From: a virus
Virus record (IMG/VR): IMGVR_UViG_3300046460_000048
Location: 1-48,432 of that record
DNA: 48,432 nucleotides
Direction: 5' to 3' (one strand)
Position numbers and translations under genes: made by a program. Below the pieces are notes generated by a model, which had not been told where the DNA came from, did not search any database, and was given only the letters and a program-made list of their open reading frames with translations. Below, piece after piece: positions 4,249 to 48,432 of the stretch; positions within the stretch are counted from its first letter, which is position 1; the number at the start of each line of letters is the position of its first letter.

Positions 4249-4845
4249 ATGGCAATCGACACCACACCCACCACACCATCGGACCTCCTTGAAGCAATCA
4301 ACACGCTGCTCCAGGCTGCCCGTGTGGCCACCATCGACAGCCTCGCACAGGTGGACCTCAATGAGGACGCCGGGCAAGCCAAGCTGGACATCGACACGCT
4401 TAGCCGCCAGACCCAGATGCGCGGCTGGGAGTTCAACTCAAGGCGGAACGTCACGTGGGACCCTGAGGTCAGCGGAGAGGTTCTCCTCCCGGCCAATGTC
4501 GTCAAGGTGCACACCAACCGCGCATGGACTGGGAACAGCCTTGTGGTGCGGGGGCGAAAGCTGTTCGATAAGACGGCGGGCACCTACAACATCGGCATCC
4601 CGGTCCTCGTGGACTTCGTGGAGCTGCTTGAGTTCGCTGAGCTGCCCGAGACCGTGAGGGCCTACGTGACTGGCTTGGCGGCTAGGCGTTTCGCTCTCCC
4701 CCGGCTGCCCAGTGCCACCAACTTCAAGTACACCGAGGAGCTGGTCACATCGTTCCTGTCCATGGCTGAGCAGGAGGATGGCGACATGGAAGACCTTCCG
4801 CTCCCCAAGACCAACCCCCACTTCGCCAAGATGGGCCGGAGGTAA
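4249..4845 (+). CDS. Tail tubular protein A, T7 gp11-like
   Basis: The 198-residue protein (T7 gp11: 196) has the family features DLLEAINTLLQAARVATI at the N-terminus, a WEFNSRRNVTWDPEVSGEVLLPANVVKVH segment near residues 65-95, and LPETVRAYVTGLAARRFA in the second half. It forms the adaptor ring between the connector and the nozzle protein. The start has AAGGAGACCTCACT just upstream. It is followed six bases later by tail tubular protein B. Confidence 0.93.
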   Translation: MAIDTTPTTPSDLLEAINTLLQAARVATIDSLAQVDLNEDAGQAKLDIDTLSRQTQMRGWEFNSRRNVTWDPEVSGEVLLPANVVKVHTNRAWTGNSLVVRGRKLFDKTAGTYNIGIPVLVDFVELLEFAELPETVRAYVTGLAARRFALPRLPSATNFKYTEELVTSFLSMAEQEDGDMEDLPLPKTNPHFAKMGRR

Positions 4846-20771: not shown

Positions 20772-22667
20772 ATGGACACCCAAGAGCAAATCCTTGAGGA
20801 ACTCCGGGCAGAGCGCAAAGCCGCCGCCATGCCGATGTCCTCGGACTTCGTGGTTGCCCCCCTGTCTGGCATCCAAGAGGTCATCCCGCCGTCCCTTGAG
20901 GAACGCGCCAAGGCCGACTTCCGGGTCTTCCTCACGCTCATCTGGCGCTTCCTCCTGCACGTGGACCCATCGCCCATCCAGCTCGACATGGCCTACTGGC
21001 TCCAGCACGGCCCGGACAGGTCCATCATCATGGCCTTCCGTGGGTTCTCCAAGAGCTGGATCACCGGGGCCTATGCCCTGTGGCGGCTGTACCGTGACCC
21101 CGATGAGAAGATACTCGTTGTGTCGGGAAGCTTAGTCCGTGCCGCTGCCACCACCAACTGGTGCCTCCAACTCATCATGACGATGCCCCTGCTGGCGCAC
21201 ATGAGGCCTAAGTCCAACTTCCGGCAGTCCTCGCAGATGTTCGACGTGGGCAACTGTGTGCCCGGCCAGTCGGCTTCCTTCATGGCCATGGGCATTGCGG
21301 GCCAGCTTGTCGGCTTCCGTGGCACGTGCATCATCCCGGATGACGTGGAGACCCAGACGAACTCCCTTACGGAACCCGGTAGGGTGAAGACCCGTGAAGG
21401 TGTCAAGGAGTTTGAAAGCGTCCTGACCCCCGGTGGTGTCATCAAGTACCTTGGCACCCCGCACGACAGCGACAGCTTGTACCTCTACCTGCTCCGCCTC
21501 AAGAACGAGGATGGGAGCCCGGTGTACACTGCCCGCATATGGCCCGCTCTGTTCCCCACCGAGGATGAGCGCAAGGTCTACCGCACGTGGCTAGCTCCGT
21601 ACATCACCGCCCAGATACGCAAGCAGGGCCCCAGCATTGTGGGCCACAGCACGATGCCCAACAGGTTCACCGATGAGGACCTTGCAGGCCGCCGTGCTGC
21701 CATGGGCACCTCTGAGTTCCGCCTCCAGTTCATGCTGGACCTCACGGGCACCCTGCTGGACCGCTTCCCGCTTCGCCTCAAGGACCTCATTGTGATGGAC
21801 CTCCCGGACGACATGGGGCCGGGCGAAGTGATATGGGGCACCACGCACCCCCTCCGTGACCTCACCCCGATGGGCCACGATGGCGACTACTACTACAGCC
21901 CTGTGCCCGTCGAGAAGGTCACCATGTACAAGTGGGAGGCCTTGTGCGGGTACATAGATGGGAGTGGGCGCGGTAAGGATGAGACGGCGCTATCCATCGT
22001 CGCCTTCCTCTTTGGGCGTGTCTTCCTGCTCCACCTCTGGGCCAGCACCAAGGGCTACGAGATGTCTACCCTCGTGTCCATCGCCAAGGCTTGCATCAGG
22101 TTCAAGGTCCCCAAGCTCTACCTAGAGAGCAACTTCGGGGATGGCATGTTCGCCAACCTGCTGCGGCCCGTATTGATCGCTGAGTGGGTCAAGGCCAATG
22201 AGGGCAAGTCCCACGAGCACCACGGCGGGACGATCATTGAGGAAGTCCAGAGCAGCAACAAGGCGCAGAAGGAGAAGCGCATCCTCAGTGTGCTTGAGCC
22301 GATCACCCAGCAGCACCGCCTAGTAGTCAACAAGGCTGTCATTGAGTACGACCTCAAGAGCCTGGAGAGCATTGAGGGCGAGGAGACACGCCATCGGTAT
22401 GCGTGGGGCTTCCAGTACTCGCACCTTACGCGGGAACGTGATGCCCTTGCCCACGATGACCGCCTAGAGAGCACGGCGGGAGCGGCGAGCATCTTCGCGC
22501 CTCGCATGGGCGTGGACCCTCTAGGAATGGCTGTACGGGCCGCAGAGGAGGCATATGACGATGAACTTGAGCGACTGCTCCGTGAAGATGACGAAGTGGT
22601 TGGCCGTGGTGGTAGAAGCCCCACGGGCCCCAAGATCAGAGCGGCGCTTCCACAAGCGCGGCATTGA
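20772..22667 (+). CDS. terL: Terminase large subunit, T7 gp19-like
   Basis: The ATG at 20772 gives 631 residues (T7 gp19: 586); an upstream in-frame start would run through the preceding gene. The ATPase part has a Walker A-type loop AFRGFSKSW (Lys94) and a Walker B CIIPDDVE (Asp190-Asp191). The RNase H-like nuclease begins with GYIDGSGRGKDETALSI (Asp396) and includes LYLESNFGDGM. It packages concatemeric DNA through the portal and cuts it at the genome ends. The C-terminal tail from about residue 600 is low in complexity and basic. A strong terminator follows. Confidence 0.95.
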   Translation: MDTQEQILEELRAERKAAAMPMSSDFVVAPLSGIQEVIPPSLEERAKADFRVFLTLIWRFLLHVDPSPIQLDMAYWLQHGPDRSIIMAFRGFSKSWITGAYALWRLYRDPDEKILVVSGSLVRAAATTNWCLQLIMTMPLLAHMRPKSNFRQSSQMFDVGNCVPGQSASFMAMGIAGQLVGFRGTCIIPDDVETQTNSLTEPGRVKTREGVKEFESVLTPGGVIKYLGTPHDSDSLYLYLLRLKNEDGSPVYTARIWPALFPTEDERKVYRTWLAPYITAQIRKQGPSIVGHSTMPNRFTDEDLAGRRAAMGTSEFRLQFMLDLTGTLLDRFPLRLKDLIVMDLPDDMGPGEVIWGTTHPLRDLTPMGHDGDYYYSPVPVEKVTMYKWEALCGYIDGSGRGKDETALSIVAFLFGRVFLLHLWASTKGYEMSTLVSIAKACIRFKVPKLYLESNFGDGMFANLLRPVLIAEWVKANEGKSHEHHGGTIIEEVQSSNKAQKEKRILSVLEPITQQHRLVVNKAVIEYDLKSLESIEGEETRHRYAWGFQYSHLTRERDALAHDDRLESTAGAASIFAPRMGVDPLGMAVRAAEEAYDDELERLLREDDEVVGRGGRSPTGPKIRAALPQARH

Positions 22668-22685
22668 AGGTTTAGCCTAGAGGGA

Positions 22686-22728
22686 AAAAGCACATGGGTA
22701 CGCCGCAAGGCTGTATCTGTGTGCTTTT
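22686..22728 (+). terminator. Strong terminator after terL
   Basis: A 17-bp stem (22686-22702 with 22712-22728, four G-U pairs) has the nine-base loop CCGCAAGGC. The descending arm ends in TTTT and the ascending arm begins AAAA, so it could work in both directions. It closes the late transcription unit. Confidence 0.88.
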
Positions 22729-22752
22729 AACTGGGTGCGACATTCTGTCCAT

Positions 22753-22778
22753 AGTTACCCAGCCTAATGACAGGGGGA
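22753..22778 (+). promoter_or_regulatory. Candidate phage RNAP promoter, copy 1
   Basis: AGTTACCCAGCC, then TAATGACA and GGGGGA. The first 12 bases are identical to those at 33451, and both copies continue W-ATGA-M-A and then a G-rich start. The layout (conserved block of about 20 bases, then GG) is that of promoters for single-subunit phage RNAPs. It lies directly after the terL terminator, where T7 has promoters beside its genome ends. Start site and specificity are inferred. Confidence 0.55.
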
Positions 22779-22860
22779 CCGTAGTGCTACCATAGAGAGA
22801 TACTCCTTAGTGGGTGCCCCTATGTATCCTAGTGCTGATAGCCCCTACTCCCCCTCATCC

Positions 22861-23577
22861 CATTAGGAGACCCACCATGGACACCATCATGCTATGCATC
22901 CAGCACTGCCCCGCATGGCTGGTCACCAAGGATGGTCATGGTGCTATCCTTAGTGGTCATGCTCAAAGTGACCATGTTGGACACCACCATGCACTACACC
23001 ATGCCTACCCCGGTGGTGATGATGGCTGTGGGAGACAGCACCCAAGCTATACCATCCCGGACTACACAGGGGTCTCCCATATGACACCCCATATACGTGA
23101 GGGCGGCAGCGAGGTTCCCCCCGTGCCCCCTCTCGGGCTGGGCATTGTGGCAGCTTGACGGGCCATGGTTACACCCTCATGTTACACCTAGGTCATGGTG
23201 GGGTGCTTGGTGCCATGGTTTGCAAGGGTTGTGCCTTAAGGTCACGTTAAGACGGCACCACTCATGCCACCTCCACCACCTGGGCACACATCATGCTAGG
23301 CTTGGTGCTCTCCCTTACGATCACATCATTGTCCTGCCTACTAGGTCACATTGAGCATAGAGGCATCATGGGGGCTAGGTGGCATCACCATGCCACACCC
23401 TCATGCATAGGCACCATGGCTAGCACATTGGTTGCCATGCCGCTCCCAGACCATAGGGCTTGGCATCAAGGTCACCTTGTGCACCTATATGAGAGGAGGG
23501 GGCTAGACAGGCACCATGTCACCCTGTATGGATAGCCAATGGCAACACCGCCATGGCACCTAGAGGAGCCACCCACC
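22861..23577. repeat. CATG-rich, repeat-rich segment, possible genome-end region
   Basis: By eye this 0.7-kb stretch holds about 22 CATG tetramers, many within CCATGG, ACCATG or GGTCATG, plus repeated RGGTCAY and several CTAG. An equal length at the start of the gp15-like gene (8341-9060) has none. GC is visibly lower than in the flanks. From 23159 to 23577 I see no convincing gene. In T7-like phages the physical ends and terminal repeat lie between terL and the early genes, which is this position. Confidence 0.6.
22877..23158 (+). CDS. Doubtful ORF, His-rich, in repeat-rich segment
   Basis: The ORF has a fair ribosome site (TTAGGAGACCCACC before the ATG) and codes for 93 residues, MDTIMLCIQHCPAWLVTKDGH and onward, rich in His, Gly and Pro. 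The DNA underneath is built of short repeats (GGTCAY and CATG), so the peptide composition may only reflect those repeats. No family. It may be noncoding. Confidence 0.3.
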   Translation: MDTIMLCIQHCPAWLVTKDGHGAILSGHAQSDHVGHHHALHHAYPGGDDGCGRQHPSYTIPDYTGVSHMTPHIREGGSEVPPVPPLGLGIVAA

Positions 23578-23775
23578 ATGACCACCACTACTTACACCCT
23601 CAAAGCCCACCTTGATGCCGGACATGATATGTCCCTTGTGCAACTGACCATGGTTGCTCAGACAGTGGCACAGGCAACTATCGGCTTTCATGAGGCAATG
23701 GCACAGCTAGGCTTCAAGCGGTCTGACTATGGTGCTGTGCACTGGCTGTATGTTGGCAAGTGGATTGTGGCGTGA
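23578..23775 (+). CDS. Small early protein, unknown
   Basis: The 65-residue product starts at 23578 behind CTAGAGGAG. Sequence MTTTTYTLKAHLDAGHDMSLVQLTMVAQTV and onward is mostly helical, ending in a hydrophobic HWLYVGKWIVA. It overlaps the next small ORF (TGATG). It is the first convincing early gene after the repeat-rich segment. Confidence 0.55.
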   Translation: MTTTTYTLKAHLDAGHDMSLVQLTMVAQTVAQATIGFHEAMAQLGFKRSDYGAVHWLYVGKWIVA

Positions 23776-23867
23776 TGCACACCCTAGAGCTACTCCTTAT
23801 GTGCTTCCCTGTACCCATGGCCTTCATTGTGGGCTTTGCCTTCATGGTCTTTGCACCACGCGACTAG
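23775..23867 (+). CDS. 30-residue single-span membrane peptide
   Basis: The ORF starts within the stop of the previous gene (TGATG) and codes for MHTLELLLMCFPVPMAF followed by IVGFAFMVFAPRD, nearly all one hydrophobic helix. Translational coupling and the clear membrane pattern support it. Early phage membrane peptides of this size often modify host envelope functions, but nothing specific can be said. Confidence 0.45.
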   Translation: MHTLELLLMCFPVPMAFIVGFAFMVFAPRD

Positions 23868-23876
23868 TCCTACCCT

Positions 23877-23902
23877 CTAGGGCCATACCACGCGGGCCCT
23901 AG
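23877..23902 (+). other. Intergenic hairpin without U-run
   Basis: CTAGGGCC (23877-23884) pairs with GGCCCTAG (23895-23902) around a ten-base loop. No T-run follows, so it may be a processing site (as for RNase III in T7 early RNA) or a protein-binding inverted repeat. Confidence 0.5.
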
Positions 23903-23946
23903 TAGCTAGCACTAACGCTAGAAGGCGACTAGAGGAGCCAAACACC

Positions 23947-24258
23947 ATGCACAACCACCACACCCACCACGCTGTCACCTTGCCGGGCCCGGACATGACA
24001 CCACTGTTTGGCCCTAGGGGCCAGGCAGCACCGCACCGCACCCACTACACTGCCGCCATGGCCTTCGTGCAATCGCATGGTCACTTCGCGGCTATCACGA
24101 AGGACGGCTTGCTGTGCATGTCCCTTGAGTGGGCAGACGAGATGCCTATCACCATGACCGATGCGACCGACTACAAGGTGGAGGTGCCCATGCTGTTCGA
24201 TGTGGACGCGGATGGCTTTGTGGTGTCACGCGAAGTGCGCAACTGGCTTGGCTATTGA
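23947..24258 (+). CDS. Early protein, unknown, His-rich N-terminus
   Basis: The 103-residue product follows CTAGAGGAG ten bases before its ATG. The N-terminus MHNHHTHHAVTLPGPD is His-rich. The rest (YTAAMAFVQSHGHFAAITKDGLLCMSLEW, DATDYKVEVPMLFDVDADGFVVSREVRNWLGY) is mixed alpha/beta and acidic toward the end. No membrane segment and no family that I recognise. Confidence 0.65.
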   Translation: MHNHHTHHAVTLPGPDMTPLFGPRGQAAPHRTHYTAAMAFVQSHGHFAAITKDGLLCMSLEWADEMPITMTDATDYKVEVPMLFDVDADGFVVSREVRNWLGY

Positions 24259-24272
24259 GAGGAGTGGGCATC

Positions 24273-24629
24273 ATGGAAACCATGTGGACATTCCGCACCA
24301 AGCGCTTTGCCGTCAAGTGGCAGATAGAGGAGGAGCTTGGTTACCAGTATGATGGTGATGACCAAGACGGCAGCATTCAAGCCATGCTCAATGATGGCAC
24401 TATGGTGGCCTTTGAGAGCAAGATGGTTGTCTATCTGGACGGCGTTGAGATAGCCGCCGATTACCTTGGAGGCAGTGTCTACTATGCCGACCAAGTGGCC
24501 ACATTCCGCGACCATATTGGCATGAACGCCAATGGCCATGGCAGCTACTTTAGCGACATGGTGCGGACTAGCATTGAGGAGGCACGGCGCTACCTGTGCC
24601 TAGCCCCTAAGATGCGTTGCGCTGCCTAG
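24273..24629 (+). CDS. Conserved-looking small phage protein, unknown
   Basis: From the ATG at 24273 (GAGAGGAG upstream) the product has 118 residues: METMWTFRTKRFAVKWQIEEE, GYQYDGDDQDGSIQAML, VVYLDGVEIAADYLGGSVYYADQVATFRDHIG, then SYFSDMVRTSIEEARRYL. I have a general memory of such short proteins in phages of GC-rich hosts, but none with a known function. Its last codon and stop begin the first copy of a 53-base duplicated element. Confidence 0.7.
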   Translation: METMWTFRTKRFAVKWQIEEELGYQYDGDDQDGSIQAMLNDGTMVAFESKMVVYLDGVEIAADYLGGSVYYADQVATFRDHIGMNANGHGSYFSDMVRTSIEEARRYLCLAPKMRCAA

Positions 24630-24676
24630 CCTTCCCTTGATGCATGGCCCCATGGCTGTGCATCTCGGCAAGCCTA
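24624..24676 (+). repeat. 53-nt intergenic hairpin element, copy 1
   Basis: This element matches 25320-25372 at 50 of 53 positions, and all three differences lie in the four-base loop of an 11-bp hairpin (stem 24639-24649 with 24654-24664, loop CCAT). It begins at the stop codon of the upstream gene. No U-run follows. The pattern points to a conserved RNA structure, such as a processing site. Confidence 0.8.
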
Positions 24677-24737
24677 GAGCTTGAAAGCCCGCACGGAGGC
24701 ATTCCGTGAGCCGTTTAGAGCTAGAGGACTAAACGAC

Positions 24738-25325
24738 ATGAAGACCACCACAAATCGCGGTGTAGCTGCCGCATGGGTTAATGGCATTGAGGCCAAGTCC
24801 AACAATGGCAACATGAGCACCAATGGTTGCGGCACCTTGTACAGCTACTCGACACCCATTGGCATCATCAAGAGGGGTGTTGACGGCAAGCCGGTCTACC
24901 TCATCACAGCCCATGACTACAGCGTGACCACTAAGGGCAAGCACATTGGCCCCGCGCATAGGGCAACCAACTATGCCGCCCATGTGGTTCCGTTCTTCGG
25001 CATTGGCAGGGTGGGTAGGCACAGCCCCGATACGCTTGACATGGCAGAAGCCCATGCTGGCAATGTGGCTTACCTTGTGGGGCGCTACGTTGACGACAGG
25101 GAAGGCATGAAGGCCAAGCGCTCCTTTGGGCAGTTCAATGAGGAGCATCTAATGCGCCTTGCCGCTAACGCTAGGGCTTACGCTTTGGCCTTTGGCTTGC
25201 CGCTTCCCGCCATCGATCACATGACCGACATTGTGGCCTTGCGGGGCTATCATGAGGCCAAAGCAGAGCGGGCAGCTAAGCGGAGGCCTAGCGCCACCAT
25301 CCTGCCCTTCCAGCGCCGCGCCTAG
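24738..25325 (+). CDS. Early protein, unknown, GCGTLYSYSTPI family-like
   Basis: From the ATG at 24738 (CTAGAGGAC upstream) the product has 195 residues. A strand-rich N-terminal half contains NGCGTLYSYSTPIGIIKRGVDG and PVYLITAHDYSVTTKGKH, a pattern I associate with a widespread uncharacterised phage family. The C-terminal half is helical and basic (ANARAYALAFGLPLPAID, EAKAERAAKRRPSATILPFQRRA). No enzymatic motif. Its stop is inside the second copy of the 53-base element. Confidence 0.68.
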   Translation: MKTTTNRGVAAAWVNGIEAKSNNGNMSTNGCGTLYSYSTPIGIIKRGVDGKPVYLITAHDYSVTTKGKHIGPAHRATNYAAHVVPFFGIGRVGRHSPDTLDMAEAHAGNVAYLVGRYVDDREGMKAKRSFGQFNEEHLMRLAANARAYALAFGLPLPAIDHMTDIVALRGYHEAKAERAAKRRPSATILPFQRRA

Positions 25326-25372
25326 CCTTCCCTTGATGCATGGCCACGCGGCTGTGCATCTCGGCAAGCCTA
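25320..25372 (+). repeat. 53-nt intergenic hairpin element, copy 2
   Basis: Second copy of the element at 24624. The stem is 25335-25345 with 25350-25360 and the loop is ACGC in place of CCAT. It again begins at the stop codon of the upstream gene and is followed, about 50 bases on, by a CTAGAGGAG leader, so most of the intergenic unit looks duplicated. Confidence 0.8.
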
Positions 25373-25439
25373 AGACCGCTTGGCCTAGTGCGGGGGCATT
25401 CCGCGCAACCGTCCCGACAGCTAGAGGAGTTAGGACACC

Positions 25440-25631
25440 ATGCAGGTACATGAAGGCCGCAATGGCCATTACGTGACATTCGAAAAGGCGTCCATGTGGT
25501 GGTCTGTGCAATTGCGTGATGGCAGCGGCAATCTGCTAGACAAGGTACGGTGTGACACGCATTCCGAAGCCGTGCAGTACCGTAAAGCCTTCCTACGCAT
25601 TGCTAGAGCTGGGGGCCGCACCAATGCGTAA
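25440..25631 (+). CDS. Small early protein, unknown
   Basis: The 63-residue product has CTAGAGGAG 11 bases before its ATG. Sequence MQVHEGRNGHYVTFEKASMWW, SVQLRDGSGNLLDKVRCDTHSEAVQYRKAFLRIARAGG suggests a three-strand sheet followed by a basic helix. It overlaps the next gene by eight bases. No family recognised. Confidence 0.6.
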   Translation: MQVHEGRNGHYVTFEKASMWWSVQLRDGSGNLLDKVRCDTHSEAVQYRKAFLRIARAGGRTNA

Positions 25632-25845
25632 TGGCCAGCGTCTAGTGTGCACCATCCGCGCGGCATCAAACCGTGAGGAGCCCGTAGCGCGGCTCCTAGC
25701 TGGCAAGTCGCTGGCATGGCGTATCTTCGATGTGGTCGGCACCTGCCTGGGAGTGGCAATCATCGCCTTCACCCTGGTTACCGTGACGTGTGCATTGCGG
25801 GACCACAACCCAAGCCCCCAGGTCCGGGACTTCGCCGCCAAGTAG
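25624..25845 (+). CDS. Small single-span membrane protein, unknown
   Basis: The 73-residue product starts inside the previous gene. It has a basic N-terminal part (residues 1-30), one transmembrane helix (about 34-56, FDVVGTCLGVAIIAFTLVTVTCAL) and a short polar tail. Likely an inner membrane protein of the early region. Function unknown. Confidence 0.58.
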   Translation: MRNGQRLVCTIRAASNREEPVARLLAGKSLAWRIFDVVGTCLGVAIIAFTLVTVTCALRDHNPSPQVRDFAAK

Positions 25846-25848
25846 GCC

Positions 25849-25877
25849 CTTGGGGTGGCCGCGATGGCCGCCCTAAG
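25849..25877 (+). other. 12-bp hairpin after early gene
   Basis: CTTGGGGTGGCC (25849-25860) and GGCCGCCCTAAG (25866-25877) pair along 12 bases with two G-U pairs around the loop GCGAT. There is no U-run, so it may be a processing site or a weak terminator for the early unit. Confidence 0.55.
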
Positions 25878-26100
25878 ATTAACTACAACTTGATCTAAAT
25901 CTCTGGACTAACCGCCTACAGAGTGCTAGGGCCAACGTCGCTCGTCATCGCGCGGAGGCTCCTCTAGGCGGAAACCTGATGGCAGAGCGGGGAGGGGGTT
26001 AGTCCTAGAGGCTGGCCCCCTCAGCCGTTCTAGGGTTGCCCCGATGCCGCGCCTAGTGGACTTTAGTGCCATCACCCTAGGGCAGGGTGGCCGCCATAGC

Positions 26101-26127
26101 GGTGTAACGATAGGGTGTAACACCCCG
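26101..26127. repeat. GGTGTAAC direct repeat pair 1
   Basis: GGTGTAAC occurs at 26101-26108 and 26114-26121, 13 bases start to start. The second copy also forms the palindrome GGGTGT-A-ACACCC. The same pair with the same spacing recurs at 26278. This is the pattern of paired protein-binding sites. Confidence 0.75.
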
Positions 26128-26257
26128 TTTTCCTCTCCGCCGCTATCTGTTTGTTTTCAAGGCCTTAGGGCACCCTCTAGGACCCACCCTGTTAAACACT
26201 CGTTATGGGGCGGGAGGGATGCCAAAGCCTTGTGCCGCCTCATGTTGCGGTAATTGC

Positions 26258-26285
26258 TTGACTTTCCGGGCCGCTAGGGTGTAAC
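26258..26285 (+). promoter_or_regulatory. Candidate host-type promoter for the integrase unit
   Basis: TTGACT (26258-26263) and TGTAAC (26280-26285) are separated by 16 bases. The -10 part lies inside a GGTGTAAC repeat, so a protein bound to the repeat would block the promoter. An alternative alphaproteobacterial reading uses the GCTAGG at 26273. Inferred from sequence only. Confidence 0.4.
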
Positions 26286-26299
26286 AGCGGGGTGTAACA
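26278..26299. repeat. GGTGTAAC direct repeat pair 2
   Basis: GGTGTAAC occurs at 26278-26285 and 26291-26298, again 13 bases apart, 177 bases downstream of the first pair and 25 bases before the first gene of the integration module. Both pairs read on the + strand. Confidence 0.75.
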
Positions 26300-26322
26300 G
26301 AAGCCCTAGAGGAGTTAGCCCG

Positions 26323-26535
26323 ATGCCAAGCCCAAAGCAGTTCTTAGACAACCTCGCCGCTACGATCAAAGAGGCCTTGGCGGGGTGGCCGGAATGGAAG
26401 CCCCGGTGCATCCACTGCTGCGATACGGGATTTCTCGATTGGCAGAGTGAGGAGCCCAAGGAGCCGTGCAACCATTGCTTGGTGTACGCACAGACACGCA
26501 CCTTTCCGATCATTGGCCACAAGCGGGAGGGCTGA
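26323..26535 (+). CDS. Small zinc-finger protein beside integrase
   Basis: The 70-residue product has CTAGAGGAG about nine bases before its ATG. After a short helix (QFLDNLAATIKEALAGW) it carries CIHCCDTGF and CNHC, two CxxC pairs separated by about 18 residues, as in DnaJ-type zinc-binding modules. It is encoded five bases before the integrase start and probably shares its transcript. A role as excision factor or regulator is possible from position but not shown by any motif. Confidence 0.72.
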   Translation: MPSPKQFLDNLAATIKEALAGWPEWKPRCIHCCDTGFLDWQSEEPKEPCNHCLVYAQTRTFPIIGHKREG

Positions 26536-26539
26536 CCCG

Positions 26540-28144
26540 ATGCCTCTCGCTAATCCCTACGTCCAACGCATCCCGGCTGACATCAAGCCCAAGACGGCTG
26601 GCTTGAAGCTCGACATCCCGGTGGGCGACACGTTCACACCCTACACCATCACAGCCGCCGCACAGGCCATACGGCTAAGCCTCAAGACAACCGACACGCG
26701 GGAGCGCAAGGTGCGGGCCACCAGGGTCACCGCCTATCTGGAGACCGTGTGGGCAGCCCTACGCCGTGACCATCTCGTCCCCCTTTCGCACCGTAATGCG
26801 GTAGCCCTTGCTAAGGACCTCTACGCTGCATGGGGCGAGGGGCGGGAGCGGACGCTGGCAATGGACTACGACAGGCAGACCAACACGTGGGGCCCTGCCG
26901 ACCCCTCACTGCCTCTCATGGGGGCGGACGCATGGGAGAGCACATTGGCCATGGTGGACAAGCTCACGGAAAGCCCCGAGGCACTGGACGCACTGGTCAC
27001 TGCCCGCCTACTCACCAAAGGCATCATCGGGACCGACCCCGAGACACGCACCATGATTGGCAGAGCGTTGCTTGATGCCATGCGTGATGGCTTGGCCTTA
27101 CGCAAGCGGCAGGAGGAGGGTGACTACACGCCAGACGCAAAGGCTCAGAGGTTCCCTGAGTACGAGGACCCCAAGGGTGGAGCATTGCGTCCAGCCTCAG
27201 GCGTTTCCCTCACGGGGCTTGTGGATGACTGGTGGACTGAGGCTCAAAGGACTGGCCGCTCACCCGCCACCTATGACAGCTACAAGACAACCTTCAAGCA
27301 CCTCTCTGCCTACCTCAAGCACAACGATGCGGTGCGTGTGAGGCCGAGCGACATCGTGGGCTTCAAGGATCACCGCTTGGCTCAGGGCTTGGCGGCCTCC
27401 TCAGTGTCTCTCAATCTGGCGGCCATCAAGATCATCTTCGGCTGGGCCAAGGACAACCTCAAGGTCCCCTCCAACCCGGCGCTGGGCATCAAGCTGGCCA
27501 AGACGAAGGCCACAAAGCTCCGTGAGAAGGACTTCACGCCCGAGGAGGCGACCATGGTGCTGGCCCATGCCACCACGGCCACCGGGAAGAACAAGCTCGC
27601 CAAGTTCTGGCTGCCGTGGCTCTGTGCCTACACCGGGGCCCGCGTTGGGGAGATGGTCCAGCTACGCCCCCAAGACCTACGCAAGGAGGGGGACAGCTAC
27701 GTGCTCACCATCACCCCGGAGGCAGGCACCGTGAAAGGCAAGACGGCCCGTGAGGTCGTGCTCCATGAGCATCTGGTGGCACGGGGCTTCCCGGAGGTGG
27801 TGGAGAAGTGCAGCACCCACTATGTGTTCCTCGGCAGCACCAACAACGTGAGGCAGGCCATCAAGACCACCAAGACCATGCTGGTGACCTTTGTGCGTGA
27901 GGTCATCAAGGACCCCAACGTCTCCCCGAACCACGGCTGGAGGCATAGCTTCAAGACCGTAGGGCGGGACGCGGGCATCTCCGACAGTGTGCTTGATGCC
28001 ATCTGTGGGCACACCCCATCGACTGAGGGCGGGAGGTACGGAAGCGTCTCGCTCTCCACTCAGGCCAAGGCCATGGCAAGCTTCCCAAGGTACGCCGTAG
28101 CGGGCTCCCATCAAGCTCCGCTCAACGTGGCAGCAACGACTTAA
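26540..28144 (+). CDS. int: Tyrosine-family site-specific integrase
   Basis: The ATG at 26540 gives 534 residues, with GGGAGGG upstream. A long N-terminal region precedes a SAM-like core-binding domain (about 235-325, GLVDDWWTEAQRTGRSPATYDSYKTTFKHLSAYL). The catalytic domain shows AYTGARVGEMVQL (Arg368), HGWRHSFKT (His465, Arg468), ICGHTPS (His491) and the nucleophile Tyr500 nine residues after that His, the standard spacing. All key residues appear intact, so the phage is probably able to integrate. No tRNA-like att target was found nearby. Integrases are unusual but known in T7-like podoviruses. Confidence 0.95.
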   Translation: MPLANPYVQRIPADIKPKTAGLKLDIPVGDTFTPYTITAAAQAIRLSLKTTDTRERKVRATRVTAYLETVWAALRRDHLVPLSHRNAVALAKDLYAAWGEGRERTLAMDYDRQTNTWGPADPSLPLMGADAWESTLAMVDKLTESPEALDALVTARLLTKGIIGTDPETRTMIGRALLDAMRDGLALRKRQEEGDYTPDAKAQRFPEYEDPKGGALRPASGVSLTGLVDDWWTEAQRTGRSPATYDSYKTTFKHLSAYLKHNDAVRVRPSDIVGFKDHRLAQGLAASSVSLNLAAIKIIFGWAKDNLKVPSNPALGIKLAKTKATKLREKDFTPEEATMVLAHATTATGKNKLAKFWLPWLCAYTGARVGEMVQLRPQDLRKEGDSYVLTITPEAGTVKGKTAREVVLHEHLVARGFPEVVEKCSTHYVFLGSTNNVRQAIKTTKTMLVTFVREVIKDPNVSPNHGWRHSFKTVGRDAGISDSVLDAICGHTPSTEGGRYGSVSLSTQAKAMASFPRYAVAGSHQAPLNVAATT

Positions 28145-28147
28145 AGC

Positions 28148-28175
28148 TTGACTTTTTGTTTTCCGACGTGCTAGC
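28148..28175 (+). promoter_or_regulatory. Promoter-like TTGACT/GCTAGC pair
   Basis: TTGACT at 28148-28153 is followed 16 bases later by GCTAGC. The element resembles the one before the integrase module (both read GCTTGACTTT and then GCTAG) and the TTGAC/GCTA shape of alphaproteobacterial housekeeping promoters. A terminator hairpin follows within 20 bases, so any transcript would be attenuated. Confidence 0.3.
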
Positions 28176-28192
28176 GCTTGGCCGTCAATGCG

Positions 28193-28219
28193 AGGGCTCC
28201 ATTTCGCGGTGGAGCCTTT
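28193..28219 (+). terminator. Terminator after the integrase gene
   Basis: AGGGCTCCA and TGGAGCCTT pair over nine bases (one G-U) around an eight-base loop, with TTT at the end. It lies 50 bases beyond the integrase stop and separates it from the next gene. Confidence 0.7.
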
Positions 28220-28293
28220 CGCGTATCTAGAAGCCTGCCGAGCCAGAGCGGAACCTTTGGCGATCTACCTCCGCATACCTTGGAGTTACGTAC

Positions 28294-28986
28294 ATGAAGC
28301 GACTATTCGGTTTCACACTCGCCGCACTGGCTTTGTATGCTGCGCCTTCTGACAATGGCAGCGGCATCAAGTTCCTCGGCACCACGGAAGGCCCCGCGCC
28401 TGCTGACAGCTTGTCCACTGAGGCCAAGCAAGTCGGTGACCAGCAGGGCCGCACCACGGCTGGCATCAAGTTCCTCACCGACACCGTGATGCAGGAGGCC
28501 GCCCAGAACGGTGCTCCCGGCTTCACCGGCAAGATGGCCCAGGTGAGCAAGCAGGGTGGCGAAGGCCTGCTGACCATCGACGCCTTCACTGGCATGGTGG
28601 TGATGAACGAGGACACCCCGGAGTGGGCCACGGACTTGGGGCTGGTCACTGCCGTCCTCACCGAGCGCCACTCGTTCTATGCATCCCGCCTCGGCCAGAA
28701 GTATGCCGACACCCATGTATCCCCGGAGGTGTATGCCTTCGAGGACCTCGCATGGCTCAGCATCGTGGATGACGGCGCGGAAGGCCAAGAGGTCCTCACC
28801 GATGCCGACGAGGAGCACCGCATGGAAGTGCTGGCTGCTGTCCTCGGCGTGAACCGGGAAGATGGCGAGATAGAAGGTGCCCTGGTCTCCGGGGAGTTCA
28901 TCTCGGACAACACCCGCACGGCAGCCGAGCTGGCAGCCCTTGAGGAGAGCACTGCGGCTCCCGTGGCGGTGGAAGCACAGGGCTAA
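28294..28986 (+). CDS. Acidic protein with signal-like N-terminus, unknown
   Basis: The 230-residue product begins MKRLFGFTLAALALYAAPSD, a short basic and hydrophobic stretch that could be a signal peptide or simply a membrane-seeking start. The rest is strongly acidic, with segments such as YAFEDLAWLSIVDDGAEGQEVLTDADEEHRMEVLAAVLG and a low-complexity Ala/Glu end. Glu and Asp outnumber Lys and Arg roughly two to one. The ribosome site is GGAG 14 bases upstream. No family recognised; an early host-takeover role is only a guess. Confidence 0.7.
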   Translation: MKRLFGFTLAALALYAAPSDNGSGIKFLGTTEGPAPADSLSTEAKQVGDQQGRTTAGIKFLTDTVMQEAAQNGAPGFTGKMAQVSKQGGEGLLTIDAFTGMVVMNEDTPEWATDLGLVTAVLTERHSFYASRLGQKYADTHVSPEVYAFEDLAWLSIVDDGAEGQEVLTDADEEHRMEVLAAVLGVNREDGEIEGALVSGEFISDNTRTAAELAALEESTAAPVAVEAQG

Positions 28987-48305: not shown

Positions 48306-48432
48306 TTCCCCATGTGCTTCCTCCCCAAGCCGAAAGGCAACAAGGTCCCCGACCCGACCCCGGAGCCCCAGAAGGTGGCCGATCCGCAGGAGATCGGTGG
48401 TGCCCGTAAGGCCGAAGACAAGACCCTGTTCG
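48306..48432. repeat. Terminal direct repeat, copy 2 (with partial 7.3-like gene)
   Basis: Exact copy of bases 1-127. It contains the first 121 bases of the 7.3-like gene (ATG at 48312) preceded by the real ribosome site AGAAGGA near 48294. Joining the ends at this overlap restores one continuous late operon. Confidence 0.9.

Follow-up and report, generated by a model that had tools for sequence, protein, structure and literature searches.

General features of the phage record and the integrase locus

The DNA analyzed here (the window) is the entire 48,432-bp stretch of IMG/VR record IMGVR_UViG_3300046460_000048, which was found to encode a T7-like RNA polymerase, a terminase, a DNA polymerase and a tail fibre. 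The record ends in an exact direct repeat of 127 bp (positions 1–127 and 48306–48432), a length which is a common k-mer setting of assemblers; the repeat is most likely an assembly overlap, so that the complete genome probably forms a closed circle of 48,305 bp. No nucleotide relative was found when the phage collection was searched with positions 22600–28400. The features of the integrase locus are as follows:

23168–23188, minus strand: pair 3, GGTGTAAC-ATGAG-GGTGTAAC, inverted, between the terminase and early genes
26101–26121, plus strand: pair 1, GGTGTAAC-GATAG-GGTGTAAC, proposed left (P) arm-type integrase sites
26165–26225, no strand assigned: predicted stretch of the attP crossover core, from core-to-arm distances in four islands
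26258–26285, plus strand: promoter candidate of the integrase (int) operon, TTGACT-N16-TGTAAC, its TTGACTTT kept in the related phage contig G001
26278–26298, plus strand: pair 2, GGTGTAAC-AGCGG-GGTGTAAC, proposed right (P') arm-type integrase sites, adjoining the int operon
26323–26535, plus strand: CxxC-type small protein of 70 aa, first gene after the proposed attP
26540–28144, plus strand: tyrosine integrase of 534 aa (PF00589, PHROG 1)

Paired repeats and promoter candidate

An earlier note on this sequence had described two repeat pairs in a noncoding region. The four copies of GGTGTAAC do start at 26101, 26114, 26278 and 26291, all on the plus strand, with a start-to-start distance of 13 bp in each pair and of 177 bp between the pairs (which enclose 156 bp), and the region is indeed noncoding save for one unsupported 69-aa ORF at 26044–26253. 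Pair 3, a further exact pair with a 13-bp period, had been overlooked. In total, six copies of GGTGTAAC are present in the genome, all of them within pairs 1–3, compared with 0.69 expected from shuffles of the 48,432-bp record. When the pair pattern was allowed up to three mismatches, three occurrences were found in the whole record, all exact, against 0.18 expected. The sequence TTGACG lies directly before pair 3 on the plus strand.

The promoter candidate which the note had placed over pair 2 was confirmed, with TTGACT at 26258–26263, a 16-bp spacer and TGTAAC at 26280–26285, the latter fitting the -10 box at four of six positions; the candidate scored under the threshold of a consensus scan. 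The sequence TTGACTTT is situated exactly 20 bp before the GGTGTAAC of pair 2 in both the window and G001. A second TTGACTTT, similar to the copy at pair 2, occurs at 28148, 3' of int and ahead of the gene at 28294.

The integrase

The paired sites are adjoined by a tyrosine integrase gene, the product of which matches PF00589 with 34.7 bits (cut-off 27.1) and the PHROG 1 integrase with an E value of 3e-34. Residues 41–76 match DUF6538 (PF20172) with 20.3 bits, under the cut-off of 27 (21.9 bits for the integrase of G001), and the protein is homologous to proteins annotated by NCBI as DUF6538-containing. Judging from these matches, it is related to the DUF6538 integrases but falls outside the family by the curated threshold. 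Among solved structures, a profile search turned up no convincing match for the integrase, and an AlphaFold2 model built from a two-sequence alignment was discarded (pLDDT 37). No paper mentioning DUF6538 together with an integrase was found by literature search, and a search with the bare motif returned only unrelated matches among those listed.

Distribution of the pairs among phages

When IMG/VR was scanned for the exact pair, 33 contigs were returned, just one of which (IMGVR_UViG_3300037418_000397, G001) has two pairs. The same contig holds the only close integrase relative found, with 61% identity by tblastn and 65% in the alignment. Its pairs are located at 4467–4487 and 4666–4686, in the same direction and upstream of int, and are 199 bp apart compared with 177 bp in the window. 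The earlier note had staked its reading on the motif being kept in close relatives with the same integrase, and G001, the sole such relative, has both pairs. Pair 2 is identical over all 21 bp (4666–4686 in G001), whereas most of the DNA between the pairs differs, as do the genes between pair 2 and int. Within the integrase, identity is 81% over the first 80 residues, 73% in the catalytic part and 43–53% in the middle; conservation that is highest in the first 80 residues would be expected if the arm sequence is kept while the DNA between the pairs diverges. The G001 contig stops short of the part corresponding to pair 3.

Where the window has the 70-aa CxxC protein, G001 has other small genes, and one of these, between the proposed attP and int (L037 5054–5311), has a weak HTH_3 match (E 0.01). 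Either the CxxC protein of the window or the HTH_3-like protein of G001 could be a directionality factor. In the early region, the window has two near-identical, hairpin-like intergenic blocks (24624–24676 and 25320–25372) ahead of small early ORFs, and counterpart repeat blocks beginning TTGACCTTAGGG are found in G001 at about 530–626, 915–1009 and 2877–2980.

Other, unrelated contigs with the exact pair (L007, L010, L015 and others) were set aside, having different genes nearby and mostly no integrase. Nine related AT-rich contigs (L007, L010, L015, L016, L019, L023, L025, L027 and L028) have in common a ATAAACATTGAAAAATA-like sequence, and carry GGTGTAAC-N5-GGTGTAAC with extra GTTACA copies, some near primase/helicase-type genes. 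Two scans of genome collections with integrase alignments found nothing, perhaps because too few peptide patterns were used, and no relative was found in a viral scan with the Neorhizobium integrase, nor any integrase homologue in the phage collection with the Pseudochrobactrum member as query.

T7-like relatives were gathered by a terminase search (80 loci). An integrase of the window type was found in none of the 50 T7-like records searched. Because the pair is present, at up to two mismatches, in 0 of 29 T7-like relatives, 24 of which carry another integrase, the motif tracks the integrase type and not the T7-like backbone. In two of these genomes, G034 and G037, the integrase lies on the opposite side of the homologue of gene 28294, which is consistent with acquisition of the attP-int module as a unit by the window lineage. 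No analogous repeated motif present both at int and at the terminase/early junction was recognised in G034, G037 and G039. Upstream of the gene 28294 homologue, G034 (reverse complement of the contig, 2679–2810) has 15-bp units in an array, their core being GGCGCGAACCTT.

Integrase relatives in bacterial islands

Plasmid and megaplasmid records, searched at the protein level, yielded integrase homologues in Hyphomicrobiales and Rhodobacterales, the island-borne ones being about 26–44% identical to the window integrase where measured. Immediately upstream of int, 11 of 16 family loci have a direct pair of 12- or 13-bp period, in most cases following straight on a tRNA gene (mean 0.51 and maximum 4 in 2000 shuffles of the 16 loci). 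Exact repeats of at least 7 bp at 13-bp spacing occur there in nine of the 16 loci, compared with a shuffle mean of 0.25 and maximum of 3. Five of the 16 loci had no such pair in the 12- or 13-bp test, among them that of Pseudochrobactrum, which has a 6-bp one.

In Neorhizobium galegae (integrase 40% identical), a tRNA-Leu gene is followed by TGTAACA-N6-TGTAACA and then by int. At the far end, 14.5 kb on, there is another copy of the tRNA 3' end, this time with TGTAACA sites on the opposite side, along with a second right-hand pair with an int remnant behind it; the two sites of the left arm are 31 bp apart, not 13. In two islands of Methylobacterium bullatum, a tRNA-Phe or tRNA-Leu core is flanked on each side by a 13-bp-period ACCGGGGTACA pair, and when re-circularised these islands read pair, core, pair, int, with 153 bp between the pairs, close to the 177 bp of the window. 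Directly after the right arm pair in M. bullatum (L064/L065) there is a direct repeat of CGGCGAATGATTCGGCGAATG with a 12-bp period, possibly the site of a second protein. Pairs of GGTACACA in Bradyrhizobium sp. 186, and 12-bp-period pairs in Sinorhizobium and Paracoccus, lie beside tRNA genes or tRNA-like ends; the left arm of Paracoccus versutus has one site, unlike the two of Neorhizobium.

The far-end evidence comprises four islands from three species. In all four the core is flanked on either side by the motif, which is present twice per side in three of them. Wherever the far end was found, the same motif is present across the tRNA-3'-end repeat, and the re-circularised order is arm, core, arm pair, int, which is the layout of the window. 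The letters of the motif vary by integrase group while the pairing is constant, and the TGTAAC core is shared by the integrase of Neorhizobium, the one nearest to the phage pair. In the best-delimited islands the exact motif copies lie at the att sites, plus one lone TGTAACA in Neorhizobium, and pair 3 has no counterpart among them. The island DNA neighbouring the homologous integrases matched no other window protein. In Sinorhizobium meliloti Ak57 (L189) and Paracoccus ferrooxidans (L187), the order tRNA, repeat, integrase is followed by portal and capsid genes; these elements are small and prophage- or satellite-like.

Proposed attP and alternative explanations

Pairs 1 and 2 are very likely arm-type integrase-binding sites of the phage attP, a reading based on comparison of sequences and layouts. 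Of the two options in the earlier note, arm-type sites are strongly supported by the pairs of 12- or 13-bp period which flank the tRNA cores of islands with homologous integrases, and a switch built on operators of a lysogeny regulator is not supported. We infer that the integrase is the binding protein and that crossover takes place between the pairs. Each direct pair of 13-bp period would bind two integrase protomers through the conserved N-terminal region, and the catalytic domains would act on the core, roughly at 26165–26225. Pair 1 would serve as the left arm and pair 2, beside the small gene and int, as the right arm; integration with attB would thus place pair 2 and int at one prophage end and pair 1 at the other. 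Positions 26122–26277 gave no tRNA-end match (Rfam, permissive threshold) and no plasmid match (blastn), and no lysogen was found. A tRNA-Ser-like CCTCTCCGCC near 26133 was rejected as the core because of its closeness to pair 1.

Autorepression by the integrase is also probable, and is made plausible by the overlap of pair 2 with the conserved TTGACTTT promoter candidate of the int operon. What speaks against a simple attP is pair 3, which is inverted and 2.9 kb off. Since it lies where the early region begins, a regulatory reading suggests itself, and regulatory roles for pair 2 (int operon autorepression) and pair 3 are possible. It is rather unlikely, at the same time, that the integrase also binds pair 3, so as both to integrate the genome and to damp early transcription.

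It was also considered whether the pairs serve a lysogeny regulator as its operators; such a regulator (a repressor or a small int-side protein) would act at pair 3 on the early promoter nearby and at pair 2 on the int operon, shutting off both. Such a lysis-lysogeny switch, which the earlier note had suggested, could explain three pairs of which one lies by the start of the early region and one over a conserved promoter candidate, and one of the small genes that G001 has between attP and int does show a weak HTH_3 match. However, the same pairs stand beside homologous integrases in islands which match no other window protein, where they occur on both sides of the tRNA core, and the 21-bp pair is identical in two phages whose small genes at this place differ. 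As the T7-like relatives are also without the pair, the paired repeat follows the integrase and not the phage backbone and a regulator, and the switch is improbable. Binding by a recombination directionality factor (excisionase) instead of the integrase would have a precedent, since excisionases bind att DNA near the integrase gene, e.g., RdfS upstream of intS (PMC11963761). That explanation is given very little credence here: the motif tracks the integrase type, it flanks the core from both sides in four islands (with two sites per side in three), and the int-side genes differ between the two phages. That the pairs are replication iterons, or chance repeats with no recombination role, would agree with the GTGTAAC clusters near other genes in unrelated contigs and with a rough estimate by which chance could account for a fair share of the 33 exact-pair contigs. 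It is nevertheless extremely improbable, with six copies against 0.69 expected and with position, orientation and sequence exactly kept in G001 despite the diverged DNA between.

Comparison with known systems and implications

Phage lambda Int is a tyrosine integrase which binds core sites and arm sites on both sides of the core; the window differs from the lambda attP in the sequence, spacing and number of its sites. A likeness in layout is offered by ICEMlSym-R7A, a mobile element of Hyphomicrobiales, in which five IntS arm sites lie within a 283-bp attP directly upstream of intS, flanking the core and overlapping the int promoter, in which IntS represses its own promoter, and in which RdfS binds att DNA upstream of intS (PMC11963761). 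Its five sites have the consensus TGKTGGTATC, compared with GGTGTAAC in strict 13-bp-period pairs in the window, the integrases themselves not having been compared.

In having a T7-like genome with an integrase gene ahead of that for the phage RNA polymerase, the window resembles Pseudomonas phage LUZ100 (PMC10134795) and G034, G037 and G039, although the integrases of the last three are of other types and without GGTGTAAC pairs. LUZ100 has a MarR-like regulator, and attP is unmentioned in its paper (PMC10134795); no MarR-like protein was detected among the window proteins examined. The islands with DUF6538-type integrases (Neorhizobium, Methylobacterium, Bradyrhizobium, Sinorhizobium and Paracoccus) share with the window a homologous integrase and paired repeats 5' of int in the same orientation. 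They differ in being island-borne, mostly by tRNA genes, and in the letters and period (12 or 13) of the motif, and the phage core, unlike theirs, is not recognisable as a tRNA end. The paired repeats are very likely used by the integrase for inserting the phage into a bacterial chromosome, since these related soil-bacterial elements have their insertion points flanked by the same paired arrangement; the site is thus of an already known kind, in a previously undescribed integrase family.

The outcome is a concrete attP candidate for a temperate T7-like phage lineage, together with a predicted DNA target for an uncharacterised integrase N-terminal domain. It ties the integrase of a phage to soil-bacterial islands that target tRNA genes and suggests that the attP-int module has been exchanged as a unit, and the arm motif may be used to delimit islands with integrases of the window type. 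If the integrase also binds pair 3, a T7-like phage would have its lysogeny controlled by the integrase, with no repressor devoted to the task, and the 13-bp-period pairs would reveal which DNA the uncharacterised DUF6538-like domain targets.
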